Positions 8,696-32,425 of a stretch of DNA of 47,050 nt are shown here, one piece after another (position 1 is the first letter of the stretch; the number at the start of each line of letters is the position of its first letter). The notes under the pieces are model-generated. The model saw only the letters and a program-made list of their open reading frames with translations, did no database searches and was not told the origin of the DNA. Origin of the DNA: Desulfovirgula sp. Its GTDB lineage: Bacteria; Bacillota; Desulfotomaculia; Desulfotomaculales; Desulfocucumaceae. Position numbers and translations under genes: made by a program. The DNA is taken from positions 1 to 47,050 of the forward strand of contig DYET01000124.1 of assembly GCA_020725625.1 (NCBI GenBank). The letters are read 5' to 3'.

Positions 8696-10441
8696 TTGAA
8701 TATTAACGGCAGGATCAGGGTAATGCTTTCGACGGAAGGCACTTACCCCTTTCATCAGGGGGGCGTAAGCACCTGGTGCAATGTACTGGTGGAGAAACTT
8801 CCCAATATAGATTACGTTATTTACAGCATAATCATGAATCCCTTTGTGACCCAGAAATTTAGCCTGCCGGACAATGCCAGCCTGATCAAGGTGCCGCTTT
8901 GGGGTACCGAGGAACCCAGTGAGCATTTGACCACACCCTTTTCCAAGGTTTACACCGCCAAGAGATATACAGACAGCAAGGTTATCCAGAGAGAATTCAT
9001 ACCCTTATTTAAGGAACTTATAGAAGAAATTGTCAGCATCGACAAAAACCCTTTGAAGTTTGGCAATGTTCTTTTCGAAATTCACAAGTACCTCAGGGAT
9101 TATGATTATAAAAACAGCTTCAAGTCGGAAATGGCCTGGAAAGTTTTTAAAAGCACAGTTTTGGAACACTCTGCCGACAGCCGGAACAAGCTTGCCATGC
9201 CAAGCGTTTTTGACCTTACCCAAAGCCTGGGGTGGATATACAGGTTTTTGGTGATTCTAAACACGCCCCTGCCCCGGGTGGACGTGTCCCATTCGGCCGC
9301 CGCCGCCTTTTGCGGCATACCCTGCGTGCTGGCCAAGCTGGAAAACAAGACCCCATTTTTGCTGACGGAGCACGGGGTATACCTGAGGGAACAGTACCTG
9401 TCCCTTTCCCGCAGGGGATACTCCTCGTACCTCAATACTTTCCTGATTCGCCTGATTCACTCGGTGGCCGGCCTCAATTACGCCATGGCCGACCAGGTTT
9501 CCCCGGTATGCGCCTACAATACCAGGTGGGAGAGGATTTTTGGAGTTGAAGCCCATCGTATCCAGGTGATCTACAACGGTGTGGACAAGGACATATTCTC
9601 ACCTTCTCGGGATTACCATAACAGCCCGCACCCCACGGTGGTTGCCGTGGCCAGGGTGGACCCGGTGAAGGATTTGGTCACCCTGATCAGGTGCGCGGCC
9701 ATAGTTAGGGATAGAATCCCGGACGTCAGGTTTATCGTTTACGGATCGGTGACGGTGCCGGAATACTACGAAGAGTGCCTGGTTCTGCGGAAGGAACTGG
9801 ACCTGGAGGAAACATTCATTTTTGCCGGACACACCGACGATGTCCCCTCGGCATACCGCAGCGGAGACGTAATCGCCCTTACCAGCGTCACCGAGGCGTT
9901 TCCCTATTCGGTGGTGGAGGCCATGATGACGGGAAAACCGGTTGTGGCCACCGATGTGGGTGGAGTAAGAGAGGCCATAGGGGACTGCGGCCTTGTGGTC
10001 AAGCCCCGCCGTCCGGAGGAATTTGCCCGGGCACTGATCATGCTGCTGGAGGACCCGGCCCTGCGCGTTTCCCTCGGCAAGGAAGCAAGGGAGAGGGCTC
10101 TGAACCACTTTACCATCGAGCGGGCTCTGGAATTATACCTCAACAGCTACAGGAGGCTGGCGGCCAGGTATGTGGAGCCCAGGGTTGTCCCCATAAGTTT
10201 GAAACGGCAGAAGCTGCTGGCGGAAAGGGGCTATGCCCTGGCGGATATGGGGTACTGGCGGGAGGCTATTACCCAGTTCCGACAGGCCGTCAAGGCCGCC
10301 CCGGGCTCCGCCGCCGTTCCTGTGCTGCTCACGGAGATAGCCAGGGCGTACAACAACCTCGGAGAATTTGACCTGGCTTTCAGCGAACTGGAGAAGGCAG
10401 AAATAATGGCTGAGTATTTGGAGGCACTCAGGATTGCCTGA
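8696..10441 (+). CDS. PelF-like GT4 glycosyltransferase with C-terminal TPR tail
   Basis: The N-terminus RVMLSTEGTYPFHQGGVSTW is the hallmark of the PelF subgroup (DUF3492 + GT4), the cytoplasmic glycosyltransferase that polymerises the amino-sugar polysaccharide Pel. Donor-binding elements follow: YNGVDKDIF, VARVDPVKDLVTLI, and the E-x7-E motif in EAFPYSVVEAM, then DVGGVREAIGD. Residues about 500-580 add two TPR-like helical repeats (AERGYALADMGYWREAITQF; NNLGEFDLAFSELEKAE), which are not part of standard PelF. I favour TTG 8696, with AAGGTG 6 nt upstream; GTG 8675 is in frame but lacks a ribosome site. It is the first gene of a long plus-strand block that includes PelG-like and GH114 genes. 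Confidence 0.82.
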   Translation: MNINGRIRVMLSTEGTYPFHQGGVSTWCNVLVEKLPNIDYVIYSIIMNPFVTQKFSLPDNASLIKVPLWGTEEPSEHLTTPFSKVYTAKRYTDSKVIQREFIPLFKELIEEIVSIDKNPLKFGNVLFEIHKYLRDYDYKNSFKSEMAWKVFKSTVLEHSADSRNKLAMPSVFDLTQSLGWIYRFLVILNTPLPRVDVSHSAAAAFCGIPCVLAKLENKTPFLLTEHGVYLREQYLSLSRRGYSSYLNTFLIRLIHSVAGLNYAMADQVSPVCAYNTRWERIFGVEAHRIQVIYNGVDKDIFSPSRDYHNSPHPTVVAVARVDPVKDLVTLIRCAAIVRDRIPDVRFIVYGSVTVPEYYEECLVLRKELDLEETFIFAGHTDDVPSAYRSGDVIALTSVTEAFPYSVVEAMMTGKPVVATDVGGVREAIGDCGLVVKPRRPEEFARALIMLLEDPALRVSLGKEARERALNHFTIERALELYLNSYRRLAARYVEPRVVPISLKRQKLLAERGYALADMGYWREAITQFRQAVKAAPGSAAVPVLLTEIARAYNNLGEFDLAFSELEKAEIMAEYLEALRIA

Positions 10442-10469: not shown

Positions 10470-10895
10470 ATGAAGACAAATTACAAGCGATCACTTTGGG
10501 GTTACGACCCGGCCGGTGTGAACAACCTGGTCAATAAAATGGATCGGGATTATAAAGACACCATTATACAGCTGAAAAAGCAGCTGGCCGACGAGGTTCA
10601 CCACCTTGAGCTGCTGAAGGCTGAAGTCCGGAAAATAAAAAGGGATGTAGATTCGTACAGGTCCCTTGAAAATGAGATCTCCCGGTTGCTGCTGAAAGCT
10701 CACCTGGAGGCTGCCGAAAAGGTCTACGCGGCGTTGCAGAAAGCCGAACAGGTGGAAAAGGGCGCGGCGGAAAAGGTCATGCTGAAAAGGAATGAGCTGG
10801 TCAACCTGAAGGCAACCATGGAAAAAGTGAAGAACGAAATCAATTCAATGGTTGCCCAGTACCTGTCGGTAATAGAGAAGGCCGAGGGGGAGTAG
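10470..10895 (+). CDS. DivIVA/GpsB-like coiled-coil protein, 141 aa
   Basis: The protein starts with LWGYDPAGVNNLVNKMDRDY at residues 8-27, matching the GYDPxxVDxxL pattern of the DivIVA/GpsB N-terminal membrane-binding domain. The rest is a continuous heptad-rich coiled coil (about residues 27-135). DivIVA proteins bind negatively curved membrane at poles and septa and recruit partners, so this one may localise the polysaccharide machinery. The ATG at 10470 follows the PelF-like stop by 28 bp; a weak GGGTGGTG precedes it. It is separated by only 4 bp from a second, larger DivIVA-like gene. Homology is inferred from the short motif and coiled coil only. Confidence 0.6.
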   Translation: MKTNYKRSLWGYDPAGVNNLVNKMDRDYKDTIIQLKKQLADEVHHLELLKAEVRKIKRDVDSYRSLENEISRLLLKAHLEAAEKVYAALQKAEQVEKGAAEKVMLKRNELVNLKATMEKVKNEINSMVAQYLSVIEKAEGE

Positions 10896-10899
10896 GCAG

Positions 10900-12261
10900 A
10901 TGCAGGCTATAGCCGGTAAACTGCTTGGCTACAACAGGCAGCAGGTGGATGAACACCTGGAGAAAATCCGTGCGGCCCAGGAAGCCGAAATACTTTTAAT
11001 AAAAGAAAATATTGAAGCCTGCAAGCTGGAACGGGACCTCCTGGCCAGGGAACTGGAAGCGCTGCGGGAAGAAAGGGAAAGGTATGTCAAATCCGGCCAG
11101 TTGCTGAAGTATGCCCTGGAAAGGATAGAGAGTGCGGTTCTTCTGATTAACAAAGCCTCGGAAGACGATATCAAAAAGATAAATGCGGAATTGACCCGGA
11201 AAATAACGGTCCACGGCAACTATGTGGCTGATCTCGATAAAGAAATAAACCAGACCAGGGCCAAAATGGACGCGATGCTGCGGAGCATACTGCAGTTCAG
11301 CAGGGAAAAGGACGGACCCGCTGAGGAGGACTCTGCCGCCAGGAAAGTGGTGGGGACGATATTTTCCCCTGCAAGCAAATCGGAAATTGTGTCGGCCATG
11401 GGTGAAGACATCATCGGCAAGTCCGTAGTCGGATCCAACGGGGCGCTGGTGGGCCGGGTGGATAGTCTTTTCATCGACCATCAGACCAGGGAAATAAAGG
11501 GATTTTACCTTAAGGGCGGAAGGTTTGTCCCCGCCGATTGTGTCATGGCGGTAAAAAAAGACTCCCTGGTAGTTTCCGCTGACTGGCAGAAGGCGAGTGC
11601 GCAGCCGGTGGAAAAACTGGAAACCATAAAGGCCCTCATTGAAAAGCATTTTACTGGTGATGTTTCGGCCGGACCGGCGGAGAACCCGGCCGGGACTTCC
11701 GGGCAGGTGGAGGCCGGCAAGGAAGATTTAACCCCGGGTGAGGGACTGGAAACTCTGAAAGTTGTGGAAGACGGGCCAGGAGGGCTTGGCGGCGGGTTTT
11801 GGGATGACGGCTTTGACAGCGACTTGCCGAACGCTCAACCCCCGGCGGAGAAAGGCGAAACCCCGGGCAGTCCCGTGGCGCCCCGGGAAGATGCTGGCCG
11901 GGAATTGCTTTTTTCCCAGTCCGAAACGGCATCCGCGGCCGAACCGCCCGCCTTGGCACATGAATCTCGGGGCGTGACTTCCGCACCTGGGGCCGGAGGG
12001 ACGGCCGCGGTCAATGACCAGGCCGGGCCGGGGCAAGAAAGCGCTAACCGGGCAAGCCCGGCGGTGGCCAGGGAGATTAAAACCGTCAGGCACAAGTACG
12101 TGGTGGGAAAACTGGCCGGCGAGGACCTGCTGGCCGGCGACGGCCGGCTTATCATCGGGAAAAACGAAGTAATTACCCCGGAAATAATCGACAGGGCGGA
12201 AAAGGAAGGAAAGCTGGCCGAACTGATAGTCAATATGGTTATACCGGGTTTGGAACAATAA
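10900..12261 (+). CDS. DivIVA-like coiled-coil protein fused to PRC-barrel domain
   Basis: This 453-aa protein has four parts. Residues 1-25 (KLLGYNRQQVDEHLEKI) resemble the DivIVA N-terminal motif; residues about 25-135 are coiled coil. Residues about 168-230 (EDIIGKSVVGSNGALVGRVDSL..FYLKGGRFVPADCV) form a PRC-barrel like those of YrrD. Residues about 245-390 are a low-complexity Pro/Ala/Glu/Gly linker. The C-terminus (about 395-453; YVVGKLAGEDLLAGDG..ITPEIIDRAEKEGKLAEL) resembles the small motif that accompanies PRC-barrels in Firmicutes. It has no signal or membrane segment. The ATG is 5 nt after the preceding stop, so the two DivIVA-like genes are probably translationally coupled. A role as scaffold between cell pole and polymer machinery is inference; the fusion is unusual. 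Confidence 0.65.
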   Translation: MQAIAGKLLGYNRQQVDEHLEKIRAAQEAEILLIKENIEACKLERDLLARELEALREERERYVKSGQLLKYALERIESAVLLINKASEDDIKKINAELTRKITVHGNYVADLDKEINQTRAKMDAMLRSILQFSREKDGPAEEDSAARKVVGTIFSPASKSEIVSAMGEDIIGKSVVGSNGALVGRVDSLFIDHQTREIKGFYLKGGRFVPADCVMAVKKDSLVVSADWQKASAQPVEKLETIKALIEKHFTGDVSAGPAENPAGTSGQVEAGKEDLTPGEGLETLKVVEDGPGGLGGGFWDDGFDSDLPNAQPPAEKGETPGSPVAPREDAGRELLFSQSETASAAEPPALAHESRGVTSAPGAGGTAAVNDQAGPGQESANRASPAVAREIKTVRHKYVVGKLAGEDLLAGDGRLIIGKNEVITPEIIDRAEKEGKLAELIVNMVIPGLEQ

Positions 12262-12264
12262 CCT

Positions 12265-13866
12265 ATGGAACTGGTTAAAGGCGAATATAACCTGAACCAA
12301 AAAGAATCTATTCTTAACGAACTGGTTGATGAAGTTCTCAAGCGCCACATCCAGCCCGAAGACAAGTATGAAGTAGCGGCCATACTTGAGTCTTTGGGCT
12401 GGAACGACAGCATGGCTGCGGAGATATTCGGGGCAGAGGACGTTTTTGCCCTGGCCGCCACTGTATGGGACGCCATTCAAACCAAAATAGTATTTGTCCC
12501 CACTTCACAGGTTGAGAAAATACACCCTCTGAAGTACCTTCTCCTGATTATAAGGAGTTTCCTGAGGGGCACCATCTTTGCCCTGCCTATGGCTATTTCG
12601 GTGTTGTCCATGCTGACCCTGAGGTTTTCGCTCTGGTCCTATGAATACCTGTCATTGGAAAATGCCACCAGTATCGCCATGGGTACCATCCTGAGCTTCA
12701 TGGCGGTGGGTGGGTTTACCCAGGCCATTGCCCGCCGGGGTTTTATGTATGTGGGGCATGGCTACTACTACATAGCCAGAAGGGTGACCTTTCATTTTGT
12801 AAGGATAGGTTATGTAGCCTGCTTGATAACCGCCGGCGCATTCCTTCTTTTTAGCCTCATTTTTTCGGTTTTTCCCTGGAAAATGACATTTATCATCATC
12901 CTTTACTTCATGTTCCTCTGCGCCATCTGGCTGTCGGTCACCATCATGTACATTTTGCAGAAGGAACTGGTTTTCACCGGGTTGATCATCAGCGGCATAT
13001 TCGCTGTTTTCGTCCTGTTCAAGCTGGTGGGGCTGAACATAATCGCTTCCCAGGTGACAGCCCTTTTAATGGTTTCGATAGCCGGTATTGTTGCGGCCCA
13101 CTATTATTTTGTCCGGGCGGAAAAAGAGATGGAAAAAGGAATAGTCCCGCCCATGCCGAGACTGTCCATCATAGTCTACACCAGCATACCCTTCTTTACA
13201 TACGGCTTCCTGTATTTTACCTTTCTTTTTACAGACCGGGTGATGGCCTGGTCCACCAACAACCTCTACATGCCCTACCTGATCTGGTTCAGGGGCGAAT
13301 ACGAACTGGGCCTGGACTTCGCCCTGATCACCCTGATCCTGCCCATGGGCGTGGTGGAGGTGGTGGTGAACGAGATTATGATGAACCTCGAGGCCAACCA
13401 GAAAAACCATATGGCCTCCGAAGCCGGGCGGATGAGCAGGATGTACATGCTGCTGTACTTCAAGAGGATCGTTTTTGTGGCCCTGTTTTCCCTGTTGAAC
13501 GCGGTGGCCCTTTATTTTGTGATCAAGTTTTTCAGTACCTCGGGCACTTTTGAGTTAAATCTATTTACCAGCCGGACAACCCAGTTTGTTTTCATCTGGG
13601 CGGTGGTGGCCTACGCCGTGGTGGCGGTGGCGCTGATGAACTCGCTGATCCTGTTCTGCCTGTCCCAGCCCGATATGGTCTACCGGTCCACTCTTTATTC
13701 TTTTTTAATAAACTTGTTCCTGGGTTTTGTCCTCAGCCGCTGGGTGGACTACAGCTGGGCGGTGTTCGGGCTCCTGGCCGGATCGCTGGCCTTTGCTTAC
13801 ATTACCTCCCGGCGGGTATTAAAGGTGTTCAATAAGCTGGATTACTACCTATACTCCGCTTCTTAA
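12265..13866 (+). CDS. Divergent PelG-like polytopic membrane transporter
   Basis: The 533-aa protein has a charged helical N-terminal domain (residues about 1-75) and then about 12 predicted membrane spans. Its position after a PelF-like gene, its span number and its layout (basic loop, paired helices, FTDRVMAW segment, LPMGVVEV loop) resemble PelG, the MOP-type inner-membrane protein that cooperates with PelF to move the nascent chain. Overall similarity to PelG is weak by eye, so this is a family-level inference. The N-terminal extension is absent from ordinary PelG and might contact the DivIVA-like partners. The ATG lies 4 nt after the previous stop with little ribosome site, implying coupling. 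Alternative: another Wzx/MOP-type flippase. Confidence 0.55.
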   Translation: MELVKGEYNLNQKESILNELVDEVLKRHIQPEDKYEVAAILESLGWNDSMAAEIFGAEDVFALAATVWDAIQTKIVFVPTSQVEKIHPLKYLLLIIRSFLRGTIFALPMAISVLSMLTLRFSLWSYEYLSLENATSIAMGTILSFMAVGGFTQAIARRGFMYVGHGYYYIARRVTFHFVRIGYVACLITAGAFLLFSLIFSVFPWKMTFIIILYFMFLCAIWLSVTIMYILQKELVFTGLIISGIFAVFVLFKLVGLNIIASQVTALLMVSIAGIVAAHYYFVRAEKEMEKGIVPPMPRLSIIVYTSIPFFTYGFLYFTFLFTDRVMAWSTNNLYMPYLIWFRGEYELGLDFALITLILPMGVVEVVVNEIMMNLEANQKNHMASEAGRMSRMYMLLYFKRIVFVALFSLLNAVALYFVIKFFSTSGTFELNLFTSRTTQFVFIWAVVAYAVVAVALMNSLILFCLSQPDMVYRSTLYSFLINLFLGFVLSRWVDYSWAVFGLLAGSLAFAYITSRRVLKVFNKLDYYLYSAS

Positions 13867-13878
13867 GAAGGGATCCTG

Positions 13879-15894
13879 TTGTACTCGGATTTCGGCAACC
13901 AGTTGATAAACATGGCCAGGTACGGGTTTGCCTTCTGCCTGGTTTATATACTCTGGCCCCTGGTCCTGTTCAGGTACCGGGAAGAGGGCGGCCTGGAAGG
14001 TTTTATGTCCAGGTACGCTAAGATGGTTTGCCTGACCATAGCCATCGTTTATATTCTGGTCATAATCAAGCTCTATGAACTGATTTCCCTGGTGGCCGTG
14101 CTGGTCATCCTGTCCCTGTACGGCATAGTGGCCGGCGGAGTTTGGAGAAGCAACCCGAGGGAACTGGGGACCAGAATCGTCACCTGGATTTATGACCTGC
14201 TGGACGGGCTGATCCACCCGGTGAAGATTGCGGCGGATTGGGGCCGGGACCAGGCCCGGTCGCTTAATGAAGCGGTGTACCGCCGGTTCGGCAGTGCGGC
14301 GGCAGCGGGCAACACCCTTCTGTTTGCGGGGGTTTTTTTATACGCCGCCTACCTGAGGTTCTACGACGCCGTCATGCACGCCGCCCCGGCCATGTCCGAC
14401 GCCTATGTAACCCTGGCCTGGATGAAGTACATAGAGAAAAGGATACTGTTTTATGACGGAATCTACCCCCAGGGTTTTCACATCTACCTTTCCGTATTGC
14501 GCAAGTTTGCCACCAACGATTCTTTATATATCCTTAAATATACCGGTCCCCTTAACGGCGTGCTGGCGGCCCTGGGCGTCTATTTCGCAGTTTCAAGGTT
14601 TACCGGCCGGAAAGTGCCGGGCATTCTGGCCGCCTTTGTATACGGCGTCCTGGGCAGCTATCTGCCCCTTCAGTGGGAAAGGCAGGCGTCTACCAATTCC
14701 CAGGAATTTGCCCTGGTTTTTCTGGTGCCGGCCTGGTATTTCGCCGCAAACTACCTGAAATCCTCAAAAGGAACCCATCTCTGGGCGGCCGGGGCCTGTT
14801 TCGCCGTCATTGGCTGGGTGCACAGCCTTATTTTCGCATTCCTGGGAATCGGGCTTTTTTCCCTCCTGGCCGCGCATTTGCTGCTGGACTTCAGGGGATC
14901 CCTCAGGCCTTCCTGGCACATATGCCTGGCCGGTGCGGCGGCGGGGGCCCTGGCGGCCCTTCCGGTGGTTGTCGGGCTGCTGATGGGAAGGCAGTTCCAC
15001 GGGTCGTCGGCGGATTTCCTGACCCAGGATCTGCAGATTAAATTTCCCGAGATCACCCTCCTGGACCGGGCAGCCCTGGGGGGGCTGCTGCTGTTCTTCG
15101 TCATTTCCTTTTTTACAAGGAAGTCAAGGCGGGATCTTGTCATTCCGCTGTTTGTCCTGTTGCTGGGAGCATCTTCCTTTGCTTTGTACATGGTATTGGG
15201 GCCAATGACCGGCAAGGCCGTGCTGACCCATGAGCGCACCGGCATCCTCTGGAGCCTGCTGGCCTCCATGGGGATCGGGCTGGGGTGGTTTGCCGTCTTC
15301 CGGCTTTTCCCCGGAGACGGTAAAAAGCAGGTGGCCGAGGCCGTCCTGTGCCTGGGATTGATGGCCTGCGCGGTGTACTATTTCAAGCCTGCCCCGGTGC
15401 AGCCGTACAAGATGCAATACGACAGCACGGTGGATCAGTACCTCCGCATCACCGAGGAATTCAGGCCCACCGAATGGATGATTGTTTCCAACGAGGAGGA
15501 CTACCCCCTTGCACTGGGCAAGGGGTACCACCTCATGCTTGGAGAATTCCTGAACTGGTACAACCCGGAGGACAGTCGCCTGGCCAGGCAGGTGGACGGC
15601 AGGATTGAGGTTTTGTCCACCACCGACATATTTATCTTTAAAGAGAAGAACATGCTGCGGGTTGACGTAAAGGGTGCCGAGAAGACACTGGAGGCCAGGT
15701 ACCGGCGGCTGGCCAGGGAATACGAGATGCTGGACCGGTGGATTGAAAGATACAGGGCCACCCACAGCAATATGAGTATATATTACGAAGATCAGAATAT
15801 CCAGGTTTTCCGCATTCACCAGCCAAAAAGCAGGGAAGAGCAGTTCAGGGAACTGTGGGAGGGCAGGGAAAACCATGGCGCCGGCAGGCGTTAA
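13879..15894 (+). CDS. Large GT-C-like polytopic membrane protein, paralogue A
   Basis: The 671-aa protein has an N-terminal block of 3-4 spans (about 1-110), an amphipathic cytosolic segment, a GT-C-like core of roughly 9-10 spans (about 140-500), and a soluble C-terminal domain (about 515-671) probably outside the membrane. Just after the first core span lies SDAYVTLAWMKY and then DGIYPQGFH. The same SDxYVxLAWxKY / DGIYxxGxH signature occurs in the protein at 16135-18186, so the two are paralogues. GT-C enzymes place an Asp in this loop to use lipid-linked sugar donors; activity here is inferred only. The start is TTG 13879 behind GAAGGG. The 3' end overlaps the next gene by 20 bp. I do not recognise a described family. 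Confidence 0.7.
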   Translation: MYSDFGNQLINMARYGFAFCLVYILWPLVLFRYREEGGLEGFMSRYAKMVCLTIAIVYILVIIKLYELISLVAVLVILSLYGIVAGGVWRSNPRELGTRIVTWIYDLLDGLIHPVKIAADWGRDQARSLNEAVYRRFGSAAAAGNTLLFAGVFLYAAYLRFYDAVMHAAPAMSDAYVTLAWMKYIEKRILFYDGIYPQGFHIYLSVLRKFATNDSLYILKYTGPLNGVLAALGVYFAVSRFTGRKVPGILAAFVYGVLGSYLPLQWERQASTNSQEFALVFLVPAWYFAANYLKSSKGTHLWAAGACFAVIGWVHSLIFAFLGIGLFSLLAAHLLLDFRGSLRPSWHICLAGAAAGALAALPVVVGLLMGRQFHGSSADFLTQDLQIKFPEITLLDRAALGGLLLFFVISFFTRKSRRDLVIPLFVLLLGASSFALYMVLGPMTGKAVLTHERTGILWSLLASMGIGLGWFAVFRLFPGDGKKQVAEAVLCLGLMACAVYYFKPAPVQPYKMQYDSTVDQYLRITEEFRPTEWMIVSNEEDYPLALGKGYHLMLGEFLNWYNPEDSRLARQVDGRIEVLSTTDIFIFKEKNMLRVDVKGAEKTLEARYRRLAREYEMLDRWIERYRATHSNMSIYYEDQNIQVFRIHQPKSREEQFRELWEGRENHGAGRR

Positions 15895-16096
15895 GTGGAT
15901 CATAGACGCCCTAAAAAGCGTGGTCAAAAGCAGCCGGGAGGCCGAGAAGGGGCTGTTCATCCACGAGAGCCACTCCAAAGCTGAGCTGCCCGGGGAACTC
16001 CGGTTCAACATACACTCGGCTCTGGGCTGCGCTGCGTTCATGGCTGTGATAATAATTGTAAATGTCCTCATTTTTGTTTTGTTTAGAATGAGGTAA
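15875..16096 (+). CDS. 73-aa single-span membrane protein between the GT-C-like paralogues
   Basis: The ATG at 15875 lies inside the 3' end of the preceding gene, 20 bp before its stop, and has an upstream GAGGGCAGGG sequence. The first 48 residues are soluble and basic/amphipathic (VKWIIDALKSVVKSSREAEKG). Residues about 50-71 form one hydrophobic span (AAFMAVIIIVNVLIFVLF) with a basic end RMR, so the N-terminal part is cytosolic or the protein is tail-anchored. The overlap suggests stoichiometric production with paralogue A, perhaps as an accessory subunit. No family is recognised. Confidence 0.65.
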   Translation: MAPAGVKWIIDALKSVVKSSREAEKGLFIHESHSKAELPGELRFNIHSALGCAAFMAVIIIVNVLIFVLFRMR

Positions 16097-16134
16097 GGCG
16101 CTTTTTTTTAAGGTTTTTCTTATGGAGGTAGGCC

Positions 16135-18186
16135 ATGACTTTCGGGTTGGGATTCAGCATCCTGATGGCCCTCAAGGTGGTACTGTTTTTTGTCTTTATT
16201 TATATTTTTATCCCGTCTCAAATTGTCCGTTTCAGAGACGAAGAGACATTCCTGGACAAGTTTTTTATAAGCCTTGTCCACTCCTCTGTCATTACTATAA
16301 TAATTGTCCACATCCTTGCGTTTTTGAAACTTTACGAAACCTTCTCCCTATTTTTCGCTTACGGAATCTGGTATATAGCATATTCGTGGGTCAGGGGCAA
16401 GTCACCGGTTGCTGTGGCAGACGCCCTGGGTATGAAGTTGGTTGTAAACATACTTGATATGTCCGAGGGCAGATCCGGTCTCGCAGGGGAATTAGCAGGC
16501 CGCGCGAAAAATTGGTTATACCAGGTATTGGCTTTTATAAAAAATATTGTAAGTGAATTGTTTTTGAACCCCTTTGCGGGGGTATTTCCCTTTGCAGCCA
16601 TAGCGGCTGCTGCCGTGATAAGGTTCAACCACTCCATAACCCACGCCTATTACGGCGCCTCGGACTCCTATGTCCACCTGGCCTGGATTAAATACCTCGG
16701 GGCCAACCAGATGTACAGGGACGGAATTTATTCTTACGGTTATCATGCTGTTCTATCAGCCCTCAGTAAGATAACACTCATAGACCCCTATTTTGTTGTT
16801 CGGTTTATAGGCCCCCTGGCAGGAACCCTATTGGTGCTGTCGGTATACTATTTTGCTTCAAGGAATTTTAAAGGTCCTTATGTGGCCCTGGTAGCCGTTT
16901 TGATTTACGGGATGGTAACCGATGACAGGTTTCCGAACGAGGTTTGGAGGCAGATTTCGGCGCTGCCGCAGGAATACGCCGCCATTTTTTTATTGCCCGG
17001 GTTGCATTTTTTTAACCTTTGGCTTAAAAATCCAGCAAACCGTTACTTGTGGCTGTCTGCGGAGTGCCTGGCCATAACCATATATATCCACCCTTATGTT
17101 ACGGTGTTTTTATCCTTAGGCTGTGCCGTTATGTGTCTTTGTTACCCCGGTAAACTATCAGACATTAGATTCCTGGCCAAAACGATTACAGCCTTTATCA
17201 TAGCGTTTCTGGCGGGGATGTTTCCGGTTGCCGTCGGGATTTTAACCGGAAAAGAATTTCACAGTACTCTGGGATATATAAAACAGGACCTGGAGTCTTC
17301 TGGCCAGGCTGTTCCCTCCCAGATAACCGCCAGTCTTTCAGAGGATAATCCCTTTATACTGATGATGCTGGCTAGTTCCGCCATTCTGCTTTTGTGCTGG
17401 CTGTTGAACGGCGCGAGAAGTGGCATGAAAAGGGAAGAGAGGGCATACCTGTTTTTTTCTATAATTTCACTGATTCTTTACTTATTTTACAGGGTGAGCA
17501 GCACTGGGATCTTGGTTGTCATGGATCCGCACCGGATTGCTACGTTTATGGCCGTGTTTTCCGCCATCACCTATGCGGGGACTGTTAATGCACTTGATTT
17601 AATAAGGGTAAAAAATGTTTTCAACGCTCTTAAAGGAGTTGCCGTGGTGGCGGTTTTAACTGCCATATTGATCTTTACACCCGTTAAAGTTCCTAAAGGT
17701 GAATGTTTCGAATATGACGAGGCAGTCAACGCCTATTTAAAAATAAAAAATTCATTTCCCGCCCTTAGCTGGACTATTGTGGCCCCGGTTGAGCAATACC
17801 AGCAAACCTTGGGTTACGCATGGCACGTGGAGTTACTTGAATTTGTCAAAAAAATGGAGGCCGCCCGGAAGCCCGAAGGTGACAAGTCATACGCCATACC
17901 CACAGACTACGTTTTTATTTTTACTGAAAAAATCCCGCTGGGATCAGACAGGCATGTTGAAGAGAGCGATTTAAATGCGGAAATTCCCGAACTGAAAGGG
18001 ACAGAAACCGAATTTTACTACAGGAATGCTGAAAACAGAAGGATCCTGCAAGCCAAGGCTTTTTTTTGGGCGGAGGATTATATGAAAAAGCGTGACAACA
18101 TGGAGGTTTTTTTTGAGGGCCAGTATTTAAAAATATTTGTACTAAAACAGGATTATAGAAACCCAGTCAAATTGTTTTCAGACTGA
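16135..18186 (+). CDS. Large GT-C-like polytopic membrane protein, paralogue B
   Basis: The 683-aa protein has the same plan as the one at 13879-15894: an N-terminal membrane block (about 1-85), a linker, a GT-C-like membrane core (about 145-500) and a soluble C-terminal domain (about 515-683). Shared signatures are SDSYVHLAWIKY, DGIYSYGYH, a following xGPLxGxLxxLxVY segment and, in the C-terminal domain, TDYVFIFTEK versus TDIFIFKEK. ATG 16135 follows ATGGAGGTAG. The gene is visibly more AT-rich than its paralogue, so duplication is old or one copy was acquired separately. It probably acts in the membrane on lipid-linked sugars or on the growing chain; this is inference. A 54-bp gap follows before the dehydrogenase gene. 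Confidence 0.7.
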   Translation: MTFGLGFSILMALKVVLFFVFIYIFIPSQIVRFRDEETFLDKFFISLVHSSVITIIIVHILAFLKLYETFSLFFAYGIWYIAYSWVRGKSPVAVADALGMKLVVNILDMSEGRSGLAGELAGRAKNWLYQVLAFIKNIVSELFLNPFAGVFPFAAIAAAAVIRFNHSITHAYYGASDSYVHLAWIKYLGANQMYRDGIYSYGYHAVLSALSKITLIDPYFVVRFIGPLAGTLLVLSVYYFASRNFKGPYVALVAVLIYGMVTDDRFPNEVWRQISALPQEYAAIFLLPGLHFFNLWLKNPANRYLWLSAECLAITIYIHPYVTVFLSLGCAVMCLCYPGKLSDIRFLAKTITAFIIAFLAGMFPVAVGILTGKEFHSTLGYIKQDLESSGQAVPSQITASLSEDNPFILMMLASSAILLLCWLLNGARSGMKREERAYLFFSIISLILYLFYRVSSTGILVVMDPHRIATFMAVFSAITYAGTVNALDLIRVKNVFNALKGVAVVAVLTAILIFTPVKVPKGECFEYDEAVNAYLKIKNSFPALSWTIVAPVEQYQQTLGYAWHVELLEFVKKMEAARKPEGDKSYAIPTDYVFIFTEKIPLGSDRHVEESDLNAEIPELKGTETEFYYRNAENRRILQAKAFFWAEDYMKKRDNMEVFFEGQYLKIFVLKQDYRNPVKLFSD

Positions 18187-19629: not shown

Positions 19630-21054
19630 ATGAGAATCCTTTTAATTAATCCTCCCTCGGAAAATGAAATCTCGGCCAACATACCTTTGGTGGTTGAAAA
19701 GGGAAGGGGATTTACCCCTCCCTTGGGGCTTCTCTACGTGGCGAGCTATGTTAAAAGGTTTTCTTCACACGATGTCAGGGTCATTGACACCCTTTTGGAT
19801 AATCTTGGACAGGAACAGATTAGGGGCTATGTTTTGTCTTATAAACCTGAGGTGGTGGGAATAACCGCCCTTAGTATGACAATGATAGACGTAATGGAAA
19901 CAGTTGCCACTATAAAGGCAGTGAACAGCGAAACCAAGGTGGTTCTGGGGGGGCCTCACCCGCACCTTTTCCCGGAGGAGACAGCGAACCTTCCCGGGGT
20001 GGATTTTATTGTGGTGGGAGAGGGTGAGGTAACATTTCTTGAACTGGTTCAGTGCCTTGAAAAGAGGAAGGAACCGCTGGATGTAAAGGGCCTGGTGTAT
20101 AAAAAAGAAGGCAAGACTGTGTTCACCGGGGAGAGAAGCCTTAACGACAGCCTGGATAATCTTCCCTTTCCAGCCAGGGAACTGGTTGACTACAAAAAAT
20201 ACTACTCGTCCATTGCAACCAGGACCCCCATCACCACCATGATGACCAGCAGGGGCTGTCCATACCGGTGTTCGTTTTGTGACCGCCCGCACCTTGGCAA
20301 AAGGTTCAGGGCCCGGTCCGCCAAGAATGTGGTGGACGAGATGGAATATTGCCATGAAATGGGCATTAATGAAATCCTGTTTTATGACGATACATTTACC
20401 ATAGATCGCCAGAGGGTATTCGACATTTGTGATGAAATTTCACGCAGGAAATTAAGGTTATTCTGGGACATAAGGTCACGGGTTAACACTGTTGACGAAG
20501 AGATGCTCAGGAAGCTATCCGAGGCCAACTGCAAGAGGATCCACTTTGGTGTCGAGGCCGGAACCCCGAAGGTTATCAGGGCGCTGAAAAAGGGGATTAC
20601 CCTGGAACAGGTTTACCAGGCTTTTAAGAGTGCCAAAAAGTACGGCATCTCTACACTGGCCTACTTTATGATTGGCAATCCCGGGGAAACAAGGGAAGAT
20701 ATAATGGAAACGATTAATCTTTCCATCAGGTTGAACCCCGACTACGCCCTTTTTTCGATTTTGGTGCCGTACCCCGGAACTGAAATATATTTTGACGGTC
20801 TCAGGAAGGGCATAATAGCTGAAGATTACTGGCGTCAATTTGCCCGAAGCCCTTATAAAGGCTTTGTACCCCGATACTGGAACGAGTTTCTGGACAGTGA
20901 AGAACTGGAAAGGCTTGTTGTATACGCATATAAAAGGTTTTACTCCAGACCCCGGTATATGCTCAAACAATTTATTAAGGTTAAATCTATGAGCGAGTTG
21001 CTGCGGAAGGCCTGGACGGGATGGAATGTGATCAAAATGAAAAAGAAATGGTAG
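19630..21054 (+). CDS. B12-binding-domain radical SAM protein
   Basis: Residues about 1-145 form a cobalamin-binding-type Rossmann domain (MRILLINPPSE; VGITALSMTMIDVMETV; VVLGGPHPHLFPEE; VVGEGEVTF). It lacks the DxHxxG motif, as in many BchE/HpnJ-like members. Residues about 200-400 are a radical SAM barrel with the cluster ligands Cys210, Cys214 and Cys217 in GCPYRCSFC. The C-terminal part carries a helical tail. Such class B enzymes methylate or rearrange unactivated carbons, using SAM and often cobalamin. The substrate is unknown; in this locus a lipid carrier or sugar is possible. The gene starts at ATG 19630 behind CAGGGG and overlaps or abuts the following GT2 gene. Confidence 0.85.
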   Translation: MRILLINPPSENEISANIPLVVEKGRGFTPPLGLLYVASYVKRFSSHDVRVIDTLLDNLGQEQIRGYVLSYKPEVVGITALSMTMIDVMETVATIKAVNSETKVVLGGPHPHLFPEETANLPGVDFIVVGEGEVTFLELVQCLEKRKEPLDVKGLVYKKEGKTVFTGERSLNDSLDNLPFPARELVDYKKYYSSIATRTPITTMMTSRGCPYRCSFCDRPHLGKRFRARSAKNVVDEMEYCHEMGINEILFYDDTFTIDRQRVFDICDEISRRKLRLFWDIRSRVNTVDEEMLRKLSEANCKRIHFGVEAGTPKVIRALKKGITLEQVYQAFKSAKKYGISTLAYFMIGNPGETREDIMETINLSIRLNPDYALFSILVPYPGTEIYFDGLRKGIIAEDYWRQFARSPYKGFVPRYWNEFLDSEELERLVVYAYKRFYSRPRYMLKQFIKVKSMSELLRKAWTGWNVIKMKKKW

Positions 21055-31609: not shown

Positions 31610-32425
31610 ATGGACAGGCTGGCCAGGTTTGCCGCGGCCAGGAATTTCGCCTTATACTACGGGGCCGGCAGGGACGGGGAGTTGGCCCGGTTTGACGTGG
31701 CTGTGGTGGAGCCGGCTGGGCAGAACGAAGCCTCCCTGCGCAGGATGCAGGATTCGGGCACCCTGGTGCTGGCCTACCTCAGCGTTGTAGAGATACCGCC
31801 CTGGGCGCCGGAAATAAAGCTGCTGAAATGCGACGACTTCTTGTGTTCCCGGGGGGAGCCCCTGATCAATGAGTGCGGCAACCGCCTGGCGGACCTGCGG
31901 TCAAGCCGGTGGACCGGGCTGCTTCTGTACAGGGCGGGAAGCCTGCTGGCCCGTTCCGGTTACGACGGGCTGTTCCTTGATACCATAGGGGATGTCGAGT
32001 CTGTCGGCTTTGCGGCTGAGACCAGGGATTCCCTTTTGCTGGCCGCGGCCGGCGCGGTCCGGAGGATTAGGACCGTGTTTCCCGGACACGTCCTGGTTCA
32101 AAACAACGGCCTGGAAAGGCTCTGCCTGATGACGGCCGAATATTTGAACGGCATCTGCTGGGAAAACCCCATGTTCGGGAATAAACCCTTCAGGCCCTGG
32201 ACTGAGGCCATGGTGGCCCGCCTGGAAAGTTTGAAGAATAAATACGGCCTCAAGGTGTTACTTTTACTGGAGGCAGGAAATAAGCCGGAACCGGGCACCG
32301 GCCCGGCGGCCGAGGAAATCGATTACAGTTTAGCCCAGGAAATTGCCGGCAAAAAAGGTTTTCTCCTGTACAGGTCCCCTCATGGATATGTCGGCGGGGT
32401 TAATCCACCTGAAGGGATGGAATGA
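31610..32425 (+). CDS. GH114-like (endo-alpha-1,4-polygalactosaminidase / TM1410 family) protein
   Basis: The 271-aa protein has a TIM-barrel pattern of the TM1410/GH114 family: FALYYGAGRD, FDVAVVEPAG, VLAYLSVVEI, LADLRSSRWTGLLLYRAG, GYDGLFLDTIGDVE, LVQNNGLERL, YLNGICWENP and GLKVLLLLEAGN. GH114 members, including the N-terminal domain of PelA, cleave galactosaminogalactan or Pel-type amino-sugar polymers. No signal peptide is visible from ATG 31610 (behind GGGAGG), so it appears cytosolic or is exported by another route. It closes the exopolysaccharide block, 26 bp after the HD-GYP gene. It supports a GalNAc/GlcN-rich polymer, by inference. Confidence 0.83.
   Translation: MDRLARFAAARNFALYYGAGRDGELARFDVAVVEPAGQNEASLRRMQDSGTLVLAYLSVVEIPPWAPEIKLLKCDDFLCSRGEPLINECGNRLADLRSSRWTGLLLYRAGSLLARSGYDGLFLDTIGDVESVGFAAETRDSLLLAAAGAVRRIRTVFPGHVLVQNNGLERLCLMTAEYLNGICWENPMFGNKPFRPWTEAMVARLESLKNKYGLKVLLLLEAGNKPEPGTGPAAEEIDYSLAQEIAGKKGFLLYRSPHGYVGGVNPPEGME

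Follow-up and report, generated by a model that had tools for sequence, protein, structure and literature searches.

The analyses presented here indicate that two adjacent genes in a glycan locus of Desulfovirgula sp., P1 and P2, encode proteins with DivIVA-type N-terminal domains, and that the pair may well serve as a dedicated membrane scaffold clustering a glycosyltransferase and an exporter, a reading to which we give a probability of roughly 0.6. DivIVA proteins are known to act at poles or septa as general scaffolds for cell division and wall growth, and the presence of the pair in the glycan locus of ten genomes suggests that division-type scaffolds organise polysaccharide export. Positions are those of the window, the whole stretch of 47,050 nucleotides that was analysed (Table 1).

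Table 1. Features of the glycan locus around P1 and P2, with positions in the window
Feature	Positions	Strand	Basis
PelF-like GT4 glycosyltransferase, DUF3492, C-terminal TPR tail, 588 aa	8675..10441	+	NCBIfam PelF, Pfam
TPR tail of the PelF-like protein, residues 514-575	10214..10399	+	Pfam TPR, each match sub-threshold
P1, short DivIVA-like protein, 141 aa	10470..10895	+	Pfam DivIVA, family profile, AF2
P1 DivIVA loop motif KRSLWGYDPAGV	10485..10520	+	translation, residue table
P2, 453 aa: DivIVA-like N-domain, coiled coil, PRC-barrel, disordered linker, YrrD-like C-motif	10900..12261	+	
P2 N-domain (GKLLGYNRQQV) and long helix, residues 13-137	10900..11310	+	hhalign, AF2
P2 PRC-barrel, about residues 169-225	11404..11574	+	Pfam PRC; 8qzo/8onw/1pm3
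P2 disordered linker (predicted), about residues 250-391	11647..12072	+	pLDDT
P2 C-motif EIKTVRHKYVVGKLAGEDL...KNEVIT...EGKLAELIVNMVIPGLE	12073..12255	+	alignments, local HMM, YrrD-like matches
PelG-like multi-pass exporter, extra ~85 aa N-domain	12265..13866	+	PF16933, N-domain alignment
Large multi-pass membrane protein, possibly GT-C type, paralogue of next gene	13879..15894	+	~10 hydrophobic segments, alignment
Second paralogue of the large membrane protein	16135..18186	+	
GH114-like protein, possible Pel-type hydrolase	31610..32425	+	Pfam GH114 23.9 bits, cut-off 27 (sub-threshold)

P1 (starting MKTNYKRSLWGYDPAGV) is followed on the same strand by P2 (starting MQAIAGKLLGYNRQQV), with 4 bp between the end of the one and the start of the other. 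Both frames lie where the sequence-only reading had placed them, and the GY-type motif and coiled coil that it ascribed to each protein are borne out: the motif is KRSLWGYDPAGV in P1 and GKLLGYNRQQV in P2, and helices are predicted for residues 14-140 and 13-137, respectively. In the AlphaFold2 model of P1 (two-sequence alignment; mean pLDDT 87) an N-terminal loop leads into this one long helix. Against Pfam DivIVA (PF05103; cut-off 28) P1 scores 28.9 bits and is, as judged from its sequence, a divergent DivIVA member; P2, with 10.3 bits, falls below the cut-off and is described here only as a protein with a DivIVA-like N-domain. The LTPxDI N-terminal segment is missing from both, which start at about model position 10.

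Since coiled coils match one another by chance, the N-domain was tested apart. Among PDB matches of a P1-family profile built from nine loci, the ten best are GpsB and DivIVA N-domain structures (E 1.1e-5 to 1.4e-3; 4ug1 at 1.1e-5, 2wuj at 1.2e-5), ahead of any generic coiled coil, and weak GpsB matches were also obtained for P2. In hhalign comparisons with canonical DivIVA of the same order, the N-domain alone gave 96.4% for P1 (E 1.3e-9) and 93.0% for the P2 family (E 3.5e-7), as against 0.1-11.1% for twenty column-shuffled P1 controls. The P2 coiled coil minus its N-domain gave 6.4% and no specific match, so the homology of P2 to DivIVA rests on the N-domain. An HMM of the P1/P2 N-domain, run over 3,797 ORFs (not independent, since many of the loci overlap), picked out DivIVA-like proteins encoded in glycan and related loci, together with each of the 20 canonical DivIVA loci, none of which had been in the training set; nothing else was hit at E 0.01. 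Moreover, locus L056 joins a DivIVA domain (57.5 bits) and the C-motif in a single 256 aa frame, bridging DivIVA and C-motif proteins. As a single sequence P1 returned generic coiled coils only from the PDB; considering this and the failure of P2 to reach the Pfam cut-off, the homology needs family profiles to be seen. With these, the match of both N-termini to DivIVA/GpsB, set beforehand as the test of the idea, was found, and homology of the two N-domains (GY motif and the helix after it) is confirmed at the level of profile comparison.

F17 and R18 are the membrane-contact residues of Bacillus subtilis DivIVA, F17 not being conserved in actinobacterial DivIVA (PMC4285798); at these positions P1 has LW and P2 has LL. 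A hydrophobic residue occupies the R18 position in 27 of 29 DivIVA-like proteins from glycan loci and in none of 19 canonical ones (residue table), and the F17 position in all except one. We infer that the change at the R18 position strengthens membrane insertion.

The remainder of P2 had been read as a PRC-barrel, a disordered linker and a YrrD-like C-motif, and each of the three holds. The PRC-barrel scores 26.3 bits against Pfam PF05239 (cut-off 21.2). Besides the long helix, the AlphaFold2 model (two-sequence alignment; mean pLDDT 57.6) has PRC-barrel strands at residues 175-225 and two C-terminal helices, with predicted disorder (pLDDT <50) over residues 235-424. Foldseek places the model with the PRC-barrels of MTH1859, the PRC domains of Archaeoglobus fulgidus CdpB1/CdpB2 and photosynthetic reaction-centre H subunits (TMt 0.67-0.75). 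The best PDB match by sequence is 8qzo (E 9.3e-7), and the nearest solved PRC-barrel is that of archaeal CdpB (CdpB1/CdpB2 of Archaeoglobus, which we take to be cell-division proteins). The C-motif, common to PRC/YrrD-type proteins, is the best conserved portion of P2 across the phylum and nearly invariant in the alignments. Since one relative of P2 (L095, 325 aa) has no PRC-barrel, that domain cannot be essential for the shared function.

P1 and P2 stand between a PelF-like glycosyltransferase upstream and a PelG-like exporter downstream, beyond which lie a UDP-sugar dehydrogenase, a B12 radical SAM protein, GT2s, polysaccharide deacetylases and a MurJ-type flippase. The ‘Pel’ identity given to this locus by the sequence-only reading stands in part. 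The PelF-like protein passes the curated cut-off of NCBIfam PelF NF038011 (160.8 bits, cut-off 100), at 588 aa against 472-491 aa for five canonical PelF proteins of the same phylum. On the other side, the PelG-like exporter reaches 15.1 bits over residues 103-530 against PF16933 (cut-off 29; three of its eight relatives match, best E 1.4e-7), and PelD and PelE were not found, in that queries from five canonical loci gave no phmmer match in the window, the Pfam PelD model itself missing 4 of the 5 canonical controls and being sub-threshold in the fifth. We therefore describe it as a glycan locus that contains PelF, not as an established Pel operon; the latter reading was considered and is not accepted, the PelG-like protein being below its cut-off.

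Several features of the locus merit separate mention. The extra N-domain of the PelG-like exporter (12265-12519) carries a conserved D.YEVAA.LES.GW.D motif, absent from canonical PelG, and is a candidate docking site. The paralogous membrane proteins (~675 aa, 13879-18186) are conserved with the exporter across the phylum and have no Pfam or PDB match in the window; one relative matches PMT_2 (E 0.0024), and they are possibly GT-C glycosyltransferases. Profile searches of the PDB with the PelG-like exporter and these proteins gave no matches. The B12-binding radical SAM protein (HpnJ/BchE-like; 19630-21054) lies between the UDP-sugar dehydrogenase and a GT2. Searches of plasmids and phage families with the proteins returned nothing useful, and a promoter/terminator scan gave numbers near those of shuffled sequence.

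The tie between the pair and the PelF-like and PelG-like genes, claimed from this one locus, extends across the phylum. The PelG-like exporter was found in 8 of 398 phylum genomes plus G031 and G093, and in all ten, distantly related within one phylum, both P1 and P2 are present in the locus, which rules out a one-off of the window genome. In five canonical PelF/PelG loci of the phylum, neither the DivIVA-like N-domain (0/5) nor the C-motif (0/5) occurs within the 14 kb stretches taken; the contrast of 10/10 with 0/5 gives Fisher p = 3.3e-4, on only five canonical loci. P1 then P2, adjacent and on one strand with gaps of -38 to +61 bp, recurs in 11 of 11 loci (the ten genomes and one MAG contig). 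The order PelF-like, P1, P2, PelG-like is that of the window, L048, L049, L095, L096, L097 and L098; in L101 and L109 the exporter is divergent, and in G468 some 11 kb separate it from the pair. A 4 kb contig binned as Smithella (L018, MVRV01000057.1), which may be mis-binned, has the four-gene order as in G093. P2 occurs at high score in 3 of 113 genomes of the class, and the P2 profile run over the 398 phylum genomes finds the DivIVA-like N-domain with the C-motif in further families.

A separate canonical DivIVA scoring above 120 bits is present in seven of the ten genomes with the pair, which in these is thus a specialised paralogue. None scoring this high was found in the window genome, G031 or G404, although a draft genome cannot prove absence; in the window genome (97% complete, 205 contigs) P1/P2 are the only DivIVA-family match. 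Within the window's own family, G000 and G026-G032 have no DivIVA match above 40 bits, while canonical DivIVA scoring above 100 bits is found in many further families of the order.

Related genes occur beside other synthases. In the window's own family, P1-type genes lie upstream of a ~1,150 aa 6-pyruvoyl-tetrahydropterin-synthase (PTPS)-related protein, exosortase G (XrtG) and its GT2. In XrtG loci a DivIVA-like gene accompanies only those PTPS-related partners that have an N-terminal coiled coil (8 with, 3 without; p = 0.006); one member (L051) has lost the GY motif and one locus (L052) is cut by the contig end. In the window (4986-34571) the Pel-like cassette occupies a chromosomal slot flanked by AdhE and by LysR/CaiB-type genes; in the congener G032 and in G027 the same slot is taken by an XrtG cassette (L054 6332-19515; L050 4984-19998), and the two cassettes have little in common except the DivIVA-like gene. 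Elsewhere, the L056 fusion adjoins a GT2 and a polysaccharide deacetylase, a DivIVA-like pair lies near a GT2 and a HEAT protein (L103), and in L129 (373-1915) a pair whose longer member has a receiver domain (Pfam) precedes a GT2 fragment. In L055 (3140-3908) the longer member appears to begin a receiver domain before the contig end cuts it, and a large uncharacterised protein adjoins.

Counter-examples exist: in genus g180 (L125, L127) the DivIVA-like gene has a housekeeping context, and neither L107 nor L099 is clearly a glycan locus. In L125 (7502-8319) and L127 (7356-8212) a small PRC-barrel gene lies directly upstream of the non-canonical DivIVA-like gene, mirroring the P2 fusion. The profile of the last census was trained on these DivIVA-like families, so its top matches are biased towards them. 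We offer as a tentative proposal, at somewhat under even odds, that paired DivIVA-domain proteins (a short one and a long one with an exchangeable C-terminal PRC-barrel and C-motif or receiver) are a general adaptor recruited separately by PelF/PelG-like, XrtG/GT2 and other GT2 synthases. Were this true, one scaffold logic would place many surface polysaccharides.

For the locus in the window, we suggest that P1 and P2 dimerise via the DivIVA N-domain and coiled coils and would co-assemble, the exposed loop (LW or LL) binding the inner face of the membrane. P2 would supply the PRC-barrel and, on a long flexible tether, the conserved C-motif; these may hold the cytosolic PelF-like glycosyltransferase, through its TPR tail, beside the PelG-like exporter, through its extra N-domain, such that polymer would be made and exported at clustered membrane sites. 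In favour of the scaffold are the DivIVA homology of both N-domains, the constant P1-P2 order (11/11), the association of the pair with the divergent exporter (10/10 vs 0/5), the near invariance of the C-motif, the hydrophobic R18 position (27/29 vs 0/19), the TPR tail and N-domain absent from canonical PelF and PelG, and the coiled-coil pattern of the XrtG loci (8 vs 3). It is weakened by the sub-threshold Pfam score of P2, the missing LTPxDI segment, L095 without PRC-barrel, the ~11 kb separation in G468, the small number (five) of canonical loci, and the loss of the GY motif in L051.

A narrower form of the scaffold would have the pair read membrane curvature like B. subtilis DivIVA and confine export to the poles or to sites of division. 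Such a polar or septal location is plausible given the DivIVA-family N-domains, the likeness of the PRC-barrel to CdpB1/CdpB2 of Archaeoglobus, the synthesis of a DivIVA-linked glycan at tips by CslA in Streptomyces (PMC13432765), and the window genome and G031, in which no canonical DivIVA was found. However, neither the N-terminal segment nor R18 of canonical DivIVA has been retained, and in the seven genomes with a separate canonical DivIVA the pair need not follow the same cue; we regard strict confinement as possible rather than probable. A role as GpsB-like coordinator, in which the pair also binds cell-wall synthases and couples polysaccharide output to peptidoglycan growth, might be read from the PDB matches, the best of which are GpsB as much as DivIVA, and from the weak GpsB matches of P2. 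Yet the N-domain is common to both, so that the match does not discriminate, and neither a PBP nor a cell-wall synthase was found in the conserved core of the locus; such coordination seems to us quite unlikely.

It is also conceivable, if rather unlikely, that P2 works as a regulatory adaptor whose PRC-barrel and C-motif respond to a ligand or partner by activating the synthase, in place of the PelD/PelE control module, while the coiled coils only oligomerise. The window gave no homologue of the canonical PelD/PelE-like genes, and the receiver domains of the long partners in L129 and, as read from its sequence, L055 are signalling modules; against this, the PelD model misses most canonical control genomes as well, and the PRC-barrel is missing in L095. 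Convergence of generic coiled-coil proteins on DivIVA would account for the coiled coils returned by P1 as a single sequence and for the 6.4% of the P2 coiled coil, but it is very improbable, considering that the N-domain alone carries the signal, that the HMM separates DivIVA-like proteins from all other sampled ORFs, that the PDB profile matches are specifically to GpsB/DivIVA and that L056 fuses DivIVA to the C-motif. Chance or generic coiled-coil likeness was in fact tried as a candidate; the N-domain-only comparison, with its shuffled controls, and the HMM scan rule it out.

If a dedicated DivIVA pair does accompany an exopolysaccharide synthase, export of the polymer would be linked to the architecture of the membrane, and the working of such loci in the absence of any recognisable PelD/PelE module could be accounted for. 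The YrrD-like C-motif, too, gains a first lead to its function from this reading. The sequence-only reading knew of no described Pel locus with such a scaffold, and our searches agree: the two main Gram-positive Pel papers (PMC7112168, PMC7112194) do not mention DivIVA in their main text, the sole paper found with DivIVA and PRC-barrel together mentions each once, and no description of such a pair in a glycan locus was found in the literature searched, subscription journals being largely outside it.

The nearest precedent is Streptomyces CslA, tied to DivIVA-dependent tip growth (PMC13432765). The CslA/GlxA glucan synthase at DivIVA-marked tips shares with the present locus a DivIVA-linked placement of an extra-peptidoglycan polysaccharide, but uses the general polar DivIVA, whereas here a dedicated pair is encoded in the synthase locus. 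The Gram-positive pelDEADAFG operon (B. cereus ATCC 10987; PMC7112168) likewise clusters a PelF-family glycosyltransferase, a PelG-like exporter, deacetylase and GH114-like genes; here, in contrast, the PelG-like protein is far below its cut-off and has the extra N-domain, PelD/PelE were not found, and two large membrane proteins and the DivIVA pair are present instead. A subset of XrtG loci (TIGR03110-03112) has a P1-type gene directly upstream, but with a GT2 synthase and a long partner that has a PTPS-related domain and neither GY motif nor PRC. YrrD-like proteins (PRC-barrels, then the C-motif) share with P2 the C-motif and one PRC and are without its DivIVA N-domain and coiled coil, and CdpB1/CdpB2 have the PRC-barrel fold but are archaeal and without DivIVA domains. 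Finally, DivIVA/GpsB proteins (PF05103; 2wuj, 4ug1) share with P1 and P2 the GY loop with a later V, the hydrophobic F17 position and a long coiled coil, whereas the LTPxDI start and the arginine at R18 are features of canonical DivIVA, replaced in P1 and P2 by a shortened start and a hydrophobic residue; and P1 and P2 form an adjacent pair, one member with a PRC-barrel and C-motif, and lie within a glycan locus, not in the ylm-ileS division cluster.
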